Source: Thermoanaerobaculia bacterium (GTDB taxonomy: Bacteria; Acidobacteriota; Thermoanaerobaculia; Multivoradales; J023). From it: a stretch of 64,000 bases of DNA. Every line of letters begins with the position of its first letter. The first letter of the stretch is position 1. Below are positions 57,504 to 63,519 of the stretch, one piece after another. The notes under the pieces were generated by a model. That model was not told the DNA's origin, ran no database searches, and worked only from the letters and a program-made list of their open reading frames with translations. The stretch is taken from assembly GCA_030431255.1 (NCBI GenBank), contig JAUIJL010000001.1, positions 1 to 64,000 of the forward strand. The letters are read 5' to 3'. The translations under genes were made by a program, and so were the position numbers.

Positions 57504-58568
57504 ATGGTGGTGTGTGTGACAAGTCGGGGCAAAAGAGACTCTGAGTTTCTAGGCGTGTGGCGTTTAGGTGCCGGCGCCTGGGTGTTTTTGGTGATCGTCG
57601 GAATCGGGTGCGCTTGCTCGAATCCGAGCCCCGGCGAGCCGGATCTCCGCCGGCAGGATCTCCGTGAGCCGGCTGGGGCCGGTTCAGAATCGGTGGAGCC
57701 GGATTGGACCGCCCTGGTGGAAGGGATTTTGGAGCTTTGGCAGGGGGCCGATTTGATTTGCCTGGGTGAAACCCACGGCAGTCTTTTGGACAGCGCTTTG
57801 CGACATGAGCTGGTGCGCCATCCCCGTTTTGCCGAGGTTGTGGACGTCATCGTGGTGGAATTCGCCAATCCGCGATTTCAAGACCGCCTGGATCGGTGGA
57901 TCCTCGATGGCGAGCGCCTACCTTTCGACCAGCTCCGTTCGATTTGGTTGGACGCCGGCCTAGGGGAAATGTGGGACCTGGAGATCTACCGCTCCTTCTT
58001 GGCGGCGGTCGCGGACCTGAACGCTGCGTTGCCGGAATCCGAGCGAATTCCGGTGATCGGCGCGGCACAACCCATCGATTGGCCGTCGGTAAAGCGAGCC
58101 GAAGATTTGCGGGACTTTCAAGATCGCATCGGGCATTTCGAAGGCGTGTTGCGTCGCGAGGTGTTGGATCCCGATCTCAAGGCTTTGGCGATCTTCGGTG
58201 TCGGACATTGCGAGCGGCGGACGCCGAGCCTGTTGTCTCGACTGGTTGCCTGGGATCCCGAGCGAGTGTCGGCGGTGTTCGCCTTCGAGGGCGAAAGAGG
58301 AAGAGCCGCGGGGCACCGAGCTCTAGGGCTCGATCATCCAAAACCACAGCTCATCAAGGTGAGCGGCACCGAGCTGGAGAAGCTGCCCGCCGGCGATATG
58401 TTCTTCGAAGGTCACGGTATCGCGGGAGTCGAGATAGGGGAGCTGGTCGACGCCATCGTCGACTACGGGATACAAGAGGACACCGTTTTGGCTCCCTATA
58501 TTCAAGAACCGGAGATCCGCGAGCAGCTCGATCGCCGGGCGGGTTGGATGTCCGCGGCTGGGAGCTGA
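57504..58568 (+). CDS. ChaN-like/erythromycin-esterase-like exported protein
   Basis: This 354-residue protein has GAGGAA before its ATG. A hydrophobic N-terminus (about 25-40, VFLVIVGIGCACS) may be a signal or lipoprotein anchor, though the cysteine context is not a perfect lipobox. The domain (about 70-345) has ADLICLGETHGSLLDSALRHEL and VIVVEFANPRFQDRLD, then VIGAAQPIDWPSV and FGVGHCERRTPSLLSRL. These match the ChaN/TraB/erythromycin-esterase superfamily, in which GETH and later His residues form a putative metal or heme site. Function is uncertain: heme binding or peptide hydrolysis are both suggested for relatives. Confidence 0.83.
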   Translation: MVVCVTSRGKRDSEFLGVWRLGAGAWVFLVIVGIGCACSNPSPGEPDLRRQDLREPAGAGSESVEPDWTALVEGILELWQGADLICLGETHGSLLDSALRHELVRHPRFAEVVDVIVVEFANPRFQDRLDRWILDGERLPFDQLRSIWLDAGLGEMWDLEIYRSFLAAVADLNAALPESERIPVIGAAQPIDWPSVKRAEDLRDFQDRIGHFEGVLRREVLDPDLKALAIFGVGHCERRTPSLLSRLVAWDPERVSAVFAFEGERGRAAGHRALGLDHPKPQLIKVSGTELEKLPAGDMFFEGHGIAGVEIGELVDAIVDYGIQEDTVLAPYIQEPEIREQLDRRAGWMSAAGS

Positions 58569-58591: not shown

Positions 58592-58910
58592 GGGGGCAAG
58601 CCCGATAGGCGCTAACCTAAGAGGTTTTCACCTGCCGCACAACTCAAACTGAACAACCCTCACCCCCCTACCCCCCTCTCCCGGGACGGGAGAGGGGGGA
58701 ATGATTGCTTGCGCTTCGCGCTCGCATTTAAAGGCGGCCTTGAGCCGTCTGGGCGTAGAAAAATCTCCCACTAAACCGAGCAAGTTGGGCGGGCTTTCCA
58801 GCTCCCCCTCTCCCGTCTGCGGGCGGCCCGCGTAGGGAGAGGGGGCTGGGGGGTGAGGGCGCAAGATAGGGCTATCAGCAGTCTAAGTTAGCGCCTATGG
58901 GGGCAAGCCC
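58592..58910. mobile_element. MITE-like non-autonomous element (about 294 bp) with terminal inverted repeats and flanking 12-bp repeats
   Basis: The ends at 58605-58621 (ATAGGCGCTAACCTAAG) and 58883-58898 (CTAAGTTAGCGCCTAT) are inverted copies sharing a 12-nt core GTTAGCGCCTAT. Immediately outside both lies the same 12-mer, GGGGGCAAGCCC, at 58592-58603 and 58899-58910 in direct orientation, which could be a target duplication. Inside, a second inverted pair, a CCCTCACCCCCCT-type end near 58657 and an AGGGGGCTGGGGGGTGAGGG-type end near 58840, folds into a long hairpin with CTCTCCC/GGGAGAG arms. No coding frame is inside. Such elements are usually present in many copies per genome. Confidence 0.6.
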
Positions 58911-58995
58911 CGACCCTACGTCCGGAAGTGCAATCTCGCCGGTTGAGGCCGAAGGCTTCGACAGCCTAGGAAAGGGCTCGCGGGTGGGATCGAGT

Positions 58996-59607
58996 CTAAG
59001 TCGTGCGTGGCATGGCGCCCGCGGTTTTCACCAAGCGCTCCAACATCTCGTAGGGTTGGGCACCGACCACCGCCAGCCCTTCGGCGACGAAGGTGGGCAC
59101 GCCGGTGACTCCTGCCTCCCTCGACGCCCGCCAATGCTCGTCCACGGCCCCCTCGAATCGACGCTCCGTGATCACCGACCTTGCCGTCTCGGCGGGAAGA
59201 CCCACCGACGCCGCGACCCCCACCAGAACGTCGATGTCGTGAAGATTCGAGCCGTCGACGAAATAGGCGCGGAAGAGGGCGTCGTGGATATCGGATCCGG
59301 GAAATTCGGTGTCGGCCCACAGGGCGAGCTCTTGGGCCAACCGCGAGTTGTAGGTGTGGGTGCGATCCCCCCAGGGAAGGCCTTGGCTTTCGGCCACTTG
59401 CCGAAGACGGGCCAGCATGCCCTCGAGATCGAAGTTTCTTCCGGCAAAGAGCTCGGCCAAGCTCTTGCCTTCCGGCGGTGTTTCTGGATGCAGGGGGAAG
59501 TGGATCCATTCCACCTCGAGCTCATATGCGCTGACCAATCGCTCAATACGCACGGTACTGAGATAACACCAGGGTCAGACGAAGTCGGAGAAGATCTGTA
59601 GCTTCAT
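58996..59607 (-). CDS. DsbA/FrnE-family thiol oxidoreductase, probable selenoprotein (UPWC active site)
   Basis: From ATG 59607 the frame reads MKLQIFSDFV, then TGA at 59577-59575, then PWCYLSTVRIERLV and onward to the stop at 58996, 203 codons including the TGA. The family motif here is DFVCPWCYLS; the TGA sits exactly at the first catalytic cysteine, so UPWC is predicted. The body has the DsbA helical insertion (PLHPETPPEG, FRAYFVDGSNLHDIDVLVGVA) and ends with the cis-Pro segment GVTGVPTFVAEG. A hairpin follows the TGA with SECIS-like spacing. A GTG at 59553 would give a truncated protein missing the first strand and the active site. Sequencing error in the TGA (a C-to-A change from TGC) is the main alternative. 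It would act on protein or small thiols in the cytoplasm. Confidence 0.8.
59542..59562 (-). promoter_or_regulatory. Candidate bacterial SECIS hairpin downstream of UGA
   Basis: Twelve nt after the UGA, CUCAGUAC pairs with GUAUUGAG (8 bp with one G-U) around the loop CGUGC, which has a G in its second position. The loop begins 21 nt after the UGA, inside the range known for bacterial SECIS elements. The hairpin lies within codons for YLSTVRIE, so the coding sequence is constrained by both roles. Confidence 0.6.
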
Positions 59608-59709
59608 GGCGCCCTTGTTTTCGTCGTTCGACGTTTCCGTGAATCTGTCGTGGGTGGAAACTTTAACAGGCTATTCCCCATCCCGTGGTTGACAGGGTCG
59701 GATCATAGG

Positions 59710-59762
59710 TGTTAAAAAATTGGCATACTGTTAATTAATTAGCACTTGCCGATTAATTGGCA
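59710..59762. promoter_or_regulatory. Three tandem BlaI-type operators upstream of blaI
   Basis: Three 16-bp palindrome-like sites, TGTTAA-aaaa-TTGGCA (59710-59725), TGTTAA-ttaa-TTAGCA (59729-59744) and TGCCGA-ttaa-TTGGCA (59747-59762), fit TGYYRA-N4-TTRRCA. They are spaced 19 and 18 bp apart and end 35 bp before the blaI start. A perfect member of the same family lies upstream of the HEAT gene. BlaI-type repressors bind such dyads as dimers, so autoregulation is the natural reading. Confidence 0.75.
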
Positions 59763-59797
59763 CTTGGACCTCGGAAGATCCGAACCGGAGAGAGACT

Positions 59798-60190
59798 ATG
59801 CCAGAGCTCGAGCATCAATTGAGCCGCAGAGAACGCCAGATCATGGACATCCTATTCAAGCGGGGCCAGGCCACCGCCGCTGAAATTCGAGAGGGTATGC
59901 CCGAAGCACCGAGCTATTCGGCGGTGCGCACCCAATTGAGGATCCTGGTGGAGAAGGGGCACATCCGTCATGAGCAGGACGGCCCCCGATATCTCTACAA
60001 ACCAACAGTCGAAAAGGAACAGGCCAAGCAGTCGGCGTTGAAGCGGGTGGTGACCACTTTCTTCGACGGCTCGGCGGAAAAAGCCATGGCGGCGTTATTG
60101 GATAGCTCCAACCAGAAGCTGTCGAGCGCAGAGCTCGACCGGTTGGAAGGTCTGATCCAAGCGGCCCGAGCACGGGAGGACGCGAGATGA
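59798..60190 (+). CDS. blaI: BlaI/MecI/CopY-family transcriptional repressor
   Basis: This 130-residue protein has GGAGAGAG before its ATG. The winged-helix N-terminus is typical of the family: LSRRERQIMDILFKRGQATAAEI, SYSAVRTQLRILVEKGHIRHE and RYLYKPTVEKEQAKQ. The C-terminal dimerisation part has SALKRVVTTFFDGSAEKAMAALLD, as in penicillinase repressors. The proteolytic switch normally involves cleavage by the BlaR1-type partner, which is encoded immediately downstream with an ATGA overlap. Three operators lie in its promoter region. Confidence 0.95.
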   Translation: MPELEHQLSRRERQIMDILFKRGQATAAEIREGMPEAPSYSAVRTQLRILVEKGHIRHEQDGPRYLYKPTVEKEQAKQSALKRVVTTFFDGSAEKAMAALLDSSNQKLSSAELDRLEGLIQAARAREDAR

Positions 60191-62058
60191 GCGCTCTTAT
60201 GGATGTGCAGATCCTCGAGGATGTCCAGGCTGTGATTCGCGAAGGCGCGATCCACGTGGCTCTTTTCGACCAAATCGCCAGAGCGACCGTCGTGTTGTTG
60301 CTGGCTTGGATCGTGTCCCGGCTGCTGCGCCGTGCCTCCGCTTCCGTCCGGCACCAAGTGTGGACGGTGGCTCTGATCGGCGTCGCGCTCCTGCCCTTGC
60401 TCTCACTCACCCTACCTACTTGGCAGCTTCCCCTCTTGACTTCCGTCACGGAGTCTCTCCTCGAGCCCTCCGATCGCTATGAGATGGTCAAGATAGAGAG
60501 GGAGCTGACCCCGATGCCGACCTCCCAGGGGGCTCTGAGCCAACCCCCCTCGAGCCCCCAGACGTGGGCTATGGGCGGCTCGGCCAGTCGGCCCGTGGGC
60601 CTTTGGCAGAGACTCGATCTTTCGACTTGGTGCGTCTTGTTGTGGGCCCTCGGGACCGCATTCTTCTTGACCCGGCTGCTGGTGTCCTACGTCGCAGCCT
60701 GGAAGGTGTCCCGTGACGCCGTCCCGGTGACGGATGAGCATCTGCTGAACGAAGTCGCAGCTCTTCGACGGCAATTGGGTATTCGGTCCAAGGTTCTGTT
60801 GGTCGAGCACGCCGGGATCACCATGCCCATGGCCTGGGGATTGGCTCGCCAGACGATCTTGTTGCCGACCGCGGCCCGTGATTGGAATCCGGAGCGTCGA
60901 CGGGTGGTGCTGCTGCACGAGCTGGCCCACCTCAAACGTTGGGATTGTCGGACGGTGCTACCCGCGAGGCTGGTCAGGGCCCTCCATTGGTTCAATCCCT
61001 TGGCTTGGATCGCCATGTCGCGTTTGCAGGCAGAGCGGGAATTCGCCTGTGACGACCTGGTTTTGACCGCCGGCACCCCGGGTCCGGATTACGCCCAACA
61101 CCTGCTCGACATCGCCCGAGCCATGCAGCCCTCCCGTTCCCCTAATCTGGCGATGGTGGCCATGGCCAGACCGTCGGAGCTGGAGGGACGGTTGTTGGCG
61201 ATCTTGGATCCGAGCCAGGAACGGGGAGGCAAGGGACGTCCGGCCCGGGTCGCGGCGTGTTTGGCGGTCGGGCTTTTGGTGTTGCCCTTGGCGTCGCTGC
61301 AGCTGAGCGCCGAAGGTGCGGCGGATCCAGGGGACGACCCGGTTGGGCATGGAGCCATGGTGAGCGACGGTGGAGACGAGCCCTTGGACCCGGCCACCCG
61401 AGCCCGGGTGCTCAAGGCCTACCATGCGGCTTTGGAAGATGAGGACTCGGACATGCGGACCCAAGCCGCCCATGCCCTCGGAACGATTGAGGATTCCGAA
61501 TCCGTCGGTCGGCTGGGTGAGGCGCTTCGGGATGAGGAGGCGACGGTTCGCGAGCAAGCGGCTTGGGCGCTGGGCATGATCGAGGATGCGTCGGCGGTGC
61601 CGATGTTGGCCTCCGTCTTGGAGGACCCCTCTTCCGGGGTCCGGACCCAAGCGGTTTGGGCACTGGGCATGATCGAAAGCGAAGCGGCGGTGGCCGACTT
61701 GATCCGGATCGCGAACGATGCCAGCCCCGAGGTCCGTCAACAGCTGGCTTGGGCCCTGGGCATGATCGAAAGCGACGCGGCGGTCGCCACCCTGGAGCGT
61801 ACCCTCGGTGACGAGGAAGCACAGGTTCGTGAGCAGGCGGCCTGGGCGCTGGGCATGATCGAAAGCCCATCCGCGGTCGGAGCCCTCAGCTCAGCGCTGG
61901 CGGACGATCCGTCGTCGGCTGTGCGACGCCAAGCGGCTTGGGCGTTGGGCATGATCGGTCACGATTCGGCTTTGGATACGTTGCTCAACGCTATGTCCGA
62001 CACAGACAAAGAAGTCCAGAAACAAGCTTTTTGGGCGGTCGGCCGCATCGCCGACTGA
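60187..62058 (+). CDS. M56 (BlaR1-like) membrane metalloprotease with HEAT-repeat sensor
   Basis: This 623-residue protein starts by ATGA overlap with blaI. Membrane helices lie at about 30-45, 58-78, 148-170 and 355-375. The M56 zinc site HELAHLKRWD (244-253), LVRALHWFNPLAWIAMSRLQ and REFACDDLVL are classical BlaR1 features. The usual penicillin-binding sensor domain is absent: after the last helix (about 375) come seven HEAT repeats (about 410-623) with the motif AWALGMIE in most copies. The HEAT array is predicted to be periplasmic, so the signal is probably a protein or peptide rather than a beta-lactam. Cleavage of BlaI would then derepress the operon and the downstream HEAT gene. Confidence 0.93.
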   Translation: MSALMDVQILEDVQAVIREGAIHVALFDQIARATVVLLLAWIVSRLLRRASASVRHQVWTVALIGVALLPLLSLTLPTWQLPLLTSVTESLLEPSDRYEMVKIERELTPMPTSQGALSQPPSSPQTWAMGGSASRPVGLWQRLDLSTWCVLLWALGTAFFLTRLLVSYVAAWKVSRDAVPVTDEHLLNEVAALRRQLGIRSKVLLVEHAGITMPMAWGLARQTILLPTAARDWNPERRRVVLLHELAHLKRWDCRTVLPARLVRALHWFNPLAWIAMSRLQAEREFACDDLVLTAGTPGPDYAQHLLDIARAMQPSRSPNLAMVAMARPSELEGRLLAILDPSQERGGKGRPARVAACLAVGLLVLPLASLQLSAEGAADPGDDPVGHGAMVSDGGDEPLDPATRARVLKAYHAALEDEDSDMRTQAAHALGTIEDSESVGRLGEALRDEEATVREQAAWALGMIEDASAVPMLASVLEDPSSGVRTQAVWALGMIESEAAVADLIRIANDASPEVRQQLAWALGMIESDAAVATLERTLGDEEAQVREQAAWALGMIESPSAVGALSSALADDPSSAVRRQAAWALGMIGHDSALDTLLNAMSDTDKEVQKQAFWAVGRIAD

Positions 62059-62193: not shown

Positions 62194-63519
62194 ATGACCA
62201 CTCCCTCGACCCATCCCATGAGCCGATATTTTGAGCTTTCCATTGCGGGCCTGATCGCCGTCGCTTTGGTTTCGCTCTTCCTTGCCGTCACGTCCACGGC
62301 GAGCCCGCCCAGGAATCTGGAGCAGCTGATCGTCCAGCTGACCTCGGTGGATGCCCACGACCGAGCCATGGCCGCTTGCGAGATCGGTCAGTTGGAAGGT
62401 GTGGATATCAGCAAGGCGGCTCCCACGCTGCTCGCCATGCTCGGCGACGATATTGAGGTAGAAGGCCGTCTTTGCCGGAATTGGAAGAGCTCGGGGAATT
62501 GGCAGCCCGAGCCGAGCTCGCCGGGTCGGGAGGCGGCTATCGCCCTCGACTCCATCGGTGAGCCGGTGGTCGATCCCTTGATCGAGACCCTGCGCTCGGC
62601 AAAGCCGGCGGCCCGTGAGCACGCCGCCTTCGCCCTGGGTTTGATCGAAAGCGGCCGTGCGGTTCAGCCGTTGATCGCGGTGCTGAATGACACCGTGGCC
62701 GCCGTGCGCGCCCGGAGCTCTTGGTCTTTGGGCATGATCGAAGACCCCGCGGCGGTCCAGGCCCTGTCTCGGATCGTCCAAGGGGACGATGACGAAGAAA
62801 CCCGGGAGCAGTCGGCCTGGGCGTTGGGCATGATCGAGCATGCCGACGCCGTTCCCGCCTTGACCCGAGCCGCCGACGACCGGTCGGTGGCCGTACGTCA
62901 ACAAGTGGCTTGGGCATTGGGCATGATCGAGCACAAAGATGCGGTGCCCGCGTTGAGCCGTTTGATCGAAGACAGCGCCGCCGAGGTCCGGGAGCAGTCG
63001 GCTTGGGCATTGGGCATGATCGAGGATCCGAGCGCGGTTCCCGCCTTGGCCGAGGCGATCGAGGATTCTTCGGAAGTGGTACGCGAGCAGTCGGCTTGGG
63101 CCCTGGGCATGATCGAGGACGCCGATGCCGTGGATCCGCTGGTCAACGCCCTACAAGACGACCATTCGGGGGTTCGCAAACAGGCGGCCTGGGCGTTGGG
63201 CATGATCGAAAGCCCGTCGGCCCTGGCCGGTTTGATGCGGTCTCTCCAGGATTCGGATTCGGGCGTCCGTGAGCAGTCGGCCTGGGCGCTGGGCATGATC
63301 GAAAGTGGGCGAGCCGCCGAAGCCCTGACCGAAGCCCTCAACGATCCGGACGCCGGAGTGCGCAAACAGGCGCTCTGGGCCTTGACCCGTTGTGTCGACG
63401 GTGACGACGCCGACGTAGATTATTCGGCGATCGCCGATCAGATTCGTAAGTCCATTCGGGTCGACAAAGAGGTGTCGGTGGAGGTGAGGAAGGCGGTGCA
63501 GGAGAGGGTCGAGCCTTGA
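62194..63519 (+). CDS. Membrane-anchored periplasmic HEAT-repeat protein
   Basis: This 441-residue protein has AAAGGAA before its ATG. One hydrophobic segment (about 15-36) is a signal anchor or uncleaved signal; the rest is predicted to be outside the cytoplasm. Nine HEAT repeats of about 31 residues (about 125-400) carry the core (A/S)AWALGMIE seven or so times with little variation; the same core recurs in the C-terminus of the M56 protease. An N-terminal helical part includes the linker QPEPSSPGREAA. It is probably co-regulated with blaI through the operator at 62112. It may titrate or bind the sensor array of the protease, or form a separate scaffold. Confidence 0.9.
   Translation: MTTPSTHPMSRYFELSIAGLIAVALVSLFLAVTSTASPPRNLEQLIVQLTSVDAHDRAMAACEIGQLEGVDISKAAPTLLAMLGDDIEVEGRLCRNWKSSGNWQPEPSSPGREAAIALDSIGEPVVDPLIETLRSAKPAAREHAAFALGLIESGRAVQPLIAVLNDTVAAVRARSSWSLGMIEDPAAVQALSRIVQGDDDEETREQSAWALGMIEHADAVPALTRAADDRSVAVRQQVAWALGMIEHKDAVPALSRLIEDSAAEVREQSAWALGMIEDPSAVPALAEAIEDSSEVVREQSAWALGMIEDADAVDPLVNALQDDHSGVRKQAAWALGMIESPSALAGLMRSLQDSDSGVREQSAWALGMIESGRAAEALTEALNDPDAGVRKQALWALTRCVDGDDADVDYSAIADQIRKSIRVDKEVSVEVRKAVQERVEP

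Follow-up and report, generated by a model that had tools for sequence, protein, structure and literature searches.

DsbA-like selenoproteins with a UxxC active site were introduced in 2005 as a new family of the Sargasso Sea selenoproteome, represented by 9 sequences of COG2761 (PMC1088965), and a survey from 2006 placed members in, for example, Anaeromyxobacter dehalogenans and Desulfovibrio desulfuricans (PMC1794560). DsbA-like selenoproteins recur in reviews of 2022 (PMC9312934) and 2026 (PMC13188914), and a "DsbA-like protein form 1," corresponding to PF01323, is named among the selenoprotein families (PMC1088965, PMC13188914, PMC9312934). FrnE, a thiol oxidoreductase of the DsbA family, is predicted to be located in the cytoplasm; many members carry a C-terminal CX4C motif that has been proposed to aid the regeneration of the active site, and the deletion of frnE is among those that raise the susceptibility to oxidative treatments (PMC8945050). 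Within the portions of text drawn on here, the word "FrnE" is absent from PMC1088965, PMC13188914, PMC1794560, PMC9312934 and PMC12013277; two papers on selenoproteins of plants and animals do contain a word that starts with "frne". Among the Acidobacteriota, Occallatibacter riparius uses selenocysteine (Sec) and has three known selenoprotein genes (PMC12013277).

The gene considered here is located in the window, by which we mean the whole stretch of 64,000 nucleotides that was analyzed, from a Thermoanaerobaculia bacterium of the Acidobacteriota (Table 1). Translation of the minus strand from 59607 to 58999 with TGA read as U yields MKLQIFSDFV-U-PWCYLSTV..., which at the level of the DNA is MKLQIFSDFV, the UGA codon and PWCYLSTVRIERL... 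up to a TAG after 203 codons. The retranslation thus agrees with the original prediction of a UGA-interrupted frame upstream of the obvious one. Likewise, the obvious frame was said to lack the active site, and the standard-code list of open reading frames indeed contains only 185 residues in this frame, starting at GTG 59553, with the active site missing. Comparative evidence indicates that this is a real selenoprotein gene, in which the UGA at 59577-59575 is very probably read as Sec.

Table 1. Coordinates of the selenoprotein gene and its elements in the window.
Feature	Coordinates	Strand	Details and basis
Coding sequence of the putative DsbA/FrnE-type selenoprotein	58999..59607	(-)	203 codons, then TAG; ATG at 59607-59605; translation with TGA=U
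In-frame UGA, very probable Sec codon; residue 11, first of the UPWC active site	59575..59577	(-)	Comparison of codons in homologs
Codon of Cys14, presumed resolving Cys of UPWC and the only Cys of the protein	59566..59568	(-)	Translation, alignment
GVPTF motif, Pro is residue 171	59089..59103	(-)	V170 and P171 do not vary among 35 aligned homologs
Bacterial SECIS stem-loop, as judged by comparison	59542..59562	(-)	Arms 59562-59555 and 59549-59542, 8 bp; comparative evidence
SECIS loop CGUGC	59554-59550	(-)	G at 59553 invariant (86 rows)

The Pfam DSBA domain was matched with 122.7 bits when Cys was substituted at the UGA and with 114.6 bits when the DNA was read through with one TGA inside, so that the product combines a PF01323 domain with UxxC, as in the DsbA-like UxxC selenoproteins. 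Residues S7, D8, U11, P12, W13 and C14 are invariant in the four rows of the family, and D8, C/U11, P12 and C14 are invariant in 35 aligned homologs; P171 of the GVPTF motif is presumably the cis-proline that faces the active site in the thioredoxin fold. In NCBIfam, no model exceeded its cut-off for the selenoprotein (NF041057 alone was listed, with 37.4 against a cut-off of 190), and no sigma-70-like promoter was found in a search of 58700-59850. The UGA could also be a true stop, followed by a re-start at GTG 59553 that yields a short product lacking the active site; this is exactly the frame that the standard-code list displays. However, conservation at the protein level extends before and across the UGA, both in the four family rows and in the 35 homologs, and the UGA itself has been retained across phyla. 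We rejected the re-start on these grounds and consider it extremely improbable.

The strongest evidence comes from the homologs, which were retrieved with queries of the Sec form. The 113 loci (L020-L132) correspond to 110 distinct ones, since L108 repeats L022, L042 repeats L026 and L050 repeats L029; the window gene (L020) is counted among the 110. The codon at the first active-site position is UGA in 95 of the distinct loci and TGC or TGT in 14, while L048 also has Cys here; 109 of the 113 loci were called by a script (94 TGA, 12 TGC and 3 TGT) and L035, L036, L048 and L051 by eye. Thus, the UGA aligns with the TGC and TGT codons of the Cys homologs, and a Cys is present at this position where Sec is not. 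The proposal that Sec replaces the first Cys of CPWC gains support from this alignment, from the Sec machinery of the genome and from a conserved hairpin, both of which are described below.

The same UGA is present in other assemblies. A match at 1e-10 was obtained for 10 of the 72 genomes of the order, including the genome studied here. Three members of the same family, with 60, 59 and 55% identity (G003, G004 and G005), have a UGA at the identical codon; G042 has a distant UGA form, and the remaining matches in the order have TGC or TGT. Across the phylum, 24 of 396 genomes, again with the own genome included, gave a match at 1e-12. A scan of contigs from named genomes identified 560 relatives, and the best 80 of the 560 comprise 79 with UGA and 1 with TGC; the record titles of these 80 refer to the Pseudomonadota, Acidobacteriota, SAR324, Planctomycetota and Rokuibacteriota. 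Two records from metagenome-assembled genomes (L095 and L128), titled Rhizobium sp. and Bordetella parapertussis, were placed in the tree among uncultured Pseudomonadota, and these titles may be misassigned.

In a single genome, the same appearance would arise from a nonsense mutation, or from a TGC that was misread, in a gene that is either dead or of the normal Cys type, and stops of this kind do exist: L048 in G085 has Cys first and a UGA at the second active-site Cys. But here the same UGA recurs in 95 of 110 loci and is followed by at least 179 open codons in 93 of the 95 (93 were counted, and the count ended at 200), with conserved residues on either side and a conserved hairpin. The homologs refute a pseudogene or sequencing error, which we regard as having next to no probability. 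As for L048 itself, neither SelA nor tRNA-Sec was found in G085 at the thresholds used, and this locus probably reflects a decayed gene or an error; failing that, it is puzzling.

The phylum also contains DsbA-type UGA forms that do not belong to the main clade (L028, L040, L041, L044, L045, L046 and L049), with the motifs UPWCWV, UPFCWLGEPAV, UPYCFLAEFPL and UPFCLLGQVAL and with different downstream sequences. The trees, one with 55 of 107 rows, thinned by hand to every third of the best-80 set plus L056, and one with 87 rows, placed L056 from the Betaproteobacteria inside the Sec clade. L056 has TGC and is the only Cys form in the best 80 of 560. The conserved hairpin is gone from its DNA, although another hairpin, rich in GC, can form there, and the simplest reading is that L056 represents a reversion from Sec to Cys. 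The 55-row tree requires 3 changes between Cys and Sec, a number that is uncertain because of the long branches of L028 and of several Cys rows.

Bacterial SECIS elements are described as a hairpin directly 3' of the UGA, with a small apical loop that contains a G (PMC1088965). The 8-bp stem and 5-nt loop of the original prediction were recovered, with a shift in position: counted from the UGA, nucleotide 13 (59562) is the first of the stem, and nucleotide 21, which had been given as the start of the stem, is the first of the loop. The alignment contained 86 of the 87 UGA rows (85 distinct), with L108 omitted and the columns numbered from the U of the UGA, and the hairpin pairs columns 16-23 with 29-36. 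RNAalifold, uninstructed, returned the same hairpin with 7 bp. Both sides had changed in 19 cells, distributed over three pairs, as compared to 4.3 expected (sd 1.5), and none of 500 shuffles reached as high a value; stems that were slid along the alignment gave 0 to 4 such cells. Two of the five measures of covariation were not clearly above the shuffles, since as many pairs with a double change (3) were obtained in 91 of 500 and as many further pair types (5) in 49 of 500. The covariation score was 0.090 for the true stem vs 0.079 for a slide of +3.

The pair at columns 21-31 is U-A in 73 of the 86 rows and C-G in 13, without a single half-changed row. On a protein tree in which the residues encoded by the stem were masked, this swap required 8 changes, of which at least 4 are forced by well-supported branches; one side of the swap is silent (AGT/AGC) and the other replaces Ile with Val. 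In 3 rows, A19-U33 is swapped to U19-A33, which changes Ser to Cys on one side and is silent (ATT to ATA) on the other. Because the side that is silent and the side that changes differ between the swaps, it would seem to be the pairing of the RNA, rather than the protein, that links them. Pairing is lost at 19-33 in 6 rows, and it fails at 16-36, the outermost pair of the stem, in 63 of 85. Furthermore, codons +5 to +9 vary little synonymously, with an entropy of 0.00, 0.60, 0.27, 0.23 and 0.00 bits, as compared to 1.93, 2.14, 1.64, 1.69 and 1.97 bits for the same residues downstream, and codon +13, which is mostly Leu, is synonymously free (1.91 vs 1.95 bits).

A hairpin of this type in a single sequence would prove little. 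The fold of 61 nt gave a z-score of -0.49, with 61 of 200 shuffles as good, and that of 44 nt a z-score of 0.06, with 97 of 200; only the 26 nt cut to the stem, the ends of which favor the stem, gave -2.89 (3 of 200). No SECIS family from Rfam was matched, either at the gathering cut-off over the window or with E-values up to 5 over 161 bases, so that the Infernal search proposed at the outset gave no family, while the hairpin proved to be conserved with compensatory changes. Some Cys homologs can form other hairpins, equal or stronger, at the same place. Moreover, a loose scan of frames with one UGA found 67 contexts in the window with some redox-like motif; seven of these 67 were translated and inspected by eye, and none resembled a known redox protein. 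For all these reasons, the motif and the hairpin would not suffice by themselves, and it is the recurrence of the UGA at one and the same position in 95 of 110 loci, together with the covariation of the hairpin, that takes the finding beyond chance. With its stem of 7-8 bp, its loop of 5 nt, the invariant G and the compensatory changes, the hairpin at 59562-59542 is, on comparative grounds, a SECIS element.

The original prediction had suggested a search for selA, selB, selC and selD, and all four were identified in the genome (10,192,622 bases in 54 contigs). SelA was matched with 381.2 bits (429.8 bits for TIGR00474) and SelB with 358.7 bits over model positions 1-578 of 581; SelD was matched with 359.6 bits and has an in-frame UGA of its own at CG-U-AAK. 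Among 14 known genomes used as controls, the SelA search was positive in 2, and SelB and SelD exceeded their cut-offs in 2 each. The tRNA-Sec family was matched with 72.7 bits, vs 46.4 bits for the next match (a tRNA-Ser according to ARAGORN), and ARAGORN identified the top match as a tRNA-SeC with anticodon tca. It folds into one cloverleaf with an 8-bp acceptor stem, a 5-bp T stem, a long variable arm, G73 and CCA. The tRNA-Sec model exceeded its cut-off in 5 of the 14 control genomes, for which reason matches near 47 bits mean little; the 72.7 bits are far above this level.

These data also bear on whether another amino acid is inserted at the UGA, either Cys, delivered by a selC*-type tRNA-Cys whose anticodon is UCA, or Trp, if the genetic code is altered. 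Some bacteria have selC* tRNA-Cys with UCA, allo-tRNAs occur in the Acidobacteria, and selC* is characterized by U73 and an 8/4 form (PMC7609411). The existence of Cys homologs at this codon would fit such an insertion of Cys. However, the tRNA of this genome has G73, 8/5 arms and a long variable arm, and we rejected Cys insertion on this difference. SelA and SelD, neither of which would be needed for the insertion of Cys at UGA, are both present. A changed code is contradicted by the frames of SelA and SelB, which terminate in UGA, from which it follows that UGA is still a stop in this genome, and by W13, next to the Sec, which is encoded by TGG. Altogether, the insertion of an amino acid other than Sec is very improbable, and we retain Sec as the reading of the codon.

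The association between SelA and the UGA gene across genomes is modest, because the Sec trait is common anyway. SelA (at 1e-100 or better) was found in all 17 whole genomes with a UGA at the first position, but also in 9 of the 12 genomes with the Cys form only, where G337 gave a weak match of 29.7 bits and G260 and G223 gave none. Family members in which no homolog was detected at the threshold used, namely G006 from the same genus and G001 and G002, have the Sec machinery (SelA in 3 of 3), and G085 has no SelA. A tRNA-Sec of at least 65 bits was identified in 14 of the 17 UGA genomes and a weak one of 48.8 bits in G390; in G242 and G293, tRNA-Sec was not found at 1e-8. G242, G293 and G390 are drafts, and SelA is present in all three.

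Further likely selenoprotein genes were observed in the genome studied here (L137, L142, L151, L155 and L018; matches start at 1501). Three AhpC-TSA matches (102.7, 62.4 and 42.4 bits) contain an in-frame UGA in the UxxC contexts GTWUPFC, GYWUPFC and HFGUMFC, and a CMD-domain protein has CxxU (CHYU; 32.5 bits). The genome may thus encode six or more selenoproteins, of which four, along with SelD, are putative assignments by motif and family match only.

As for its function, the protein has no signal peptide, as judged by eye from MKLQIFSD..., and its AlphaFold model has a mean pLDDT of 95.0. The top matches in the PDB by E-value are the Deinococcus FrnE structures 5cnw, 5co3 and 5cp1 (query TM 0.87-0.88), with 5cnw at 3.2e-15, TM 0.87 and 31% identity, and a profile search identified FrnE at 2.6e-32. 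We conclude from sequence and fold comparison that the product is almost certainly a Sec enzyme of the FrnE type in the DsbA family, probably cytoplasmic, with the UGA decoded via the SECIS. By analogy, the enzyme probably reduces or isomerizes disulfides, and would likely be a cytoplasmic disulfide reductase. In the mechanism that we propose, SelB with Sec-tRNA(Sec) would be held at the UGA by the hairpin in the coding sequence, and Sec would be inserted in place of release, as the machinery, the codon and the hairpin together suggest. The selenolate of Sec11 would attack the disulfide of the substrate, Cys14 would resolve the mixed bond to form an Se-S bond, and thioredoxin or glutathione might restore the Sec11/Cys14 couple. 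Since the protein has no Cys besides Cys14, there would be no CX4C relay of the Deinococcus FrnE type.

Alternatively, the selenoprotein might not be a general disulfide reductase but belong to a catabolic pathway, as a glutathione-dependent isomerase or a relative of the kappa-class GSTs. The next structural neighbors include 2-hydroxychromene-2-carboxylate isomerase (2imd) and kappa GSTs, and within 3 kb of the relatives there are groups of CoA-transferase III (13 of 88 loci) and luciferase-like monooxygenases (7 of 88); a second look made this alternative slightly more likely than it had first seemed. However, UPWC with its second Cys is a redox motif. Isomerases of this fold would carry Ser in place of Cys. 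FrnE is also nearer by E-value (31% identity, TM 0.87) than 2imd (22%, TM 0.78), the window gene has neither a CoA-transferase III nor a luciferase-like neighbor, and the neighbor counts are raw ones. We therefore consider an isomerase or GST relative unlikely and favor a disulfide reductase.

The survey of gene neighborhoods covered 88 loci, the best 80 of 560 and eight others, and identified 89 neighbor groups with at least 3 loci each, of which 20 were listed and are covered by the statements made here. Groups of 78, 51 and 25 loci were set aside, as by their positions they are apparently other reading frames of the selenoprotein gene, and a group of 36 loci is a mixture of such alternative frames and others. 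Ten neighbors were assigned with Pfam, giving 5 CoA-transferase III, 1 luciferase-like protein, 1 patatin and 3 without a match; five members of the CoA-transferase III group were named in this way, as was the single luciferase-like member scanned. The 13 loci of the CoA-transferase III group include L093, L101, L107 and L132; in four of the 13, the gene is on the same strand, directly upstream, and ends about 90-110 bases before the UGA. We treat these raw counts as no more than a lead and derive no function from them.

No substrate is suggested by the neighbors in the window. At a distance of 190 bases, and in divergent orientation to the selenoprotein gene, lie the genes for a BlaI-type repressor and, after it, for a BlaR1/M56 peptidase fused to HEAT repeats (59798-62058, plus strand). 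Farther along, a HEAT-like repeat protein, a family assigned by eye, has strikingly uniform 'REQSAWALGMIE' units (62194-63519, plus strand). Downstream of the selenoprotein gene, the intergenic region 58660-58860, with its long inverted stretches rich in C/T and in G (ccccctctccc ... gggagagggggg), has the appearance of a palindrome or a dispersed repeat, and on its other side a convergent gene for a possible lipoprotein (57504-58568, plus strand) has a ChaN-like PF04187 match of 23.6 bits, below the cut-off of 27.7.

A broader hypothesis, which we put forward tentatively and consider rather doubtful, is that the clade represents a nearly Sec-obligate FrnE lineage that has spread among the Pseudomonadota, Acidobacteriota, Planctomycetota and others along with a SECIS that hardly varies, and that a reversion to Cys is rare in this lineage and costs the hairpin; the rarity of reversion is based on 1 of the best 80 of 560 relatives. 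If the clade is nearly Sec-obligate, the enzyme may serve a task in which Cys would replace Sec only poorly, the fast reduction of disulfides in the cytoplasm being one example, and selenium would then substitute for the CX4C relay that other FrnE proteins have.

The use of Sec, which probably extends to several genes, is documented here for a large genome (10.2 Mb) of the Acidobacteriota. A standard call of open reading frames shortens the gene and loses the active site, and an annotation that is blind to Sec would thus miss the true enzyme. The SECIS, with its clear covariation, could also serve as a training example for programs that search for selenoproteins.

Compared with the known systems, SCO1869, a probable DsbA oxidoreductase (3gl5), has the same fold, with a TM of 0.89 that is slightly above that of FrnE, but a weaker E-value of 1.1e-12 and 29% identity to the window protein. 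The FrnE protein of Deinococcus radiodurans (DR_0659; 5cnw) is the best match in sequence and structure by E-value, and its CPWC aligns with the UPWC of the window protein. The Deinococcus protein is likewise predicted to be cytoplasmic (PMC8945050); the window protein differs in having Sec for the first Cys and in the missing C-terminal CX4C, which is also missing from some FrnE proteins (PMC8945050). With the DsbA-like UxxC family, in turn, the window gene has in common the Sec at the first Cys, the PF01323 domain, a SECIS after the UGA and the existence of Cys homologs, as far as that family is described in the portions of the sources drawn on here. No difference in kind was found, the nine Sargasso Sea sequences having been compared by description only. 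The window gene is thus a well supported further member of the known DsbA-like UxxC family, and not a new class.
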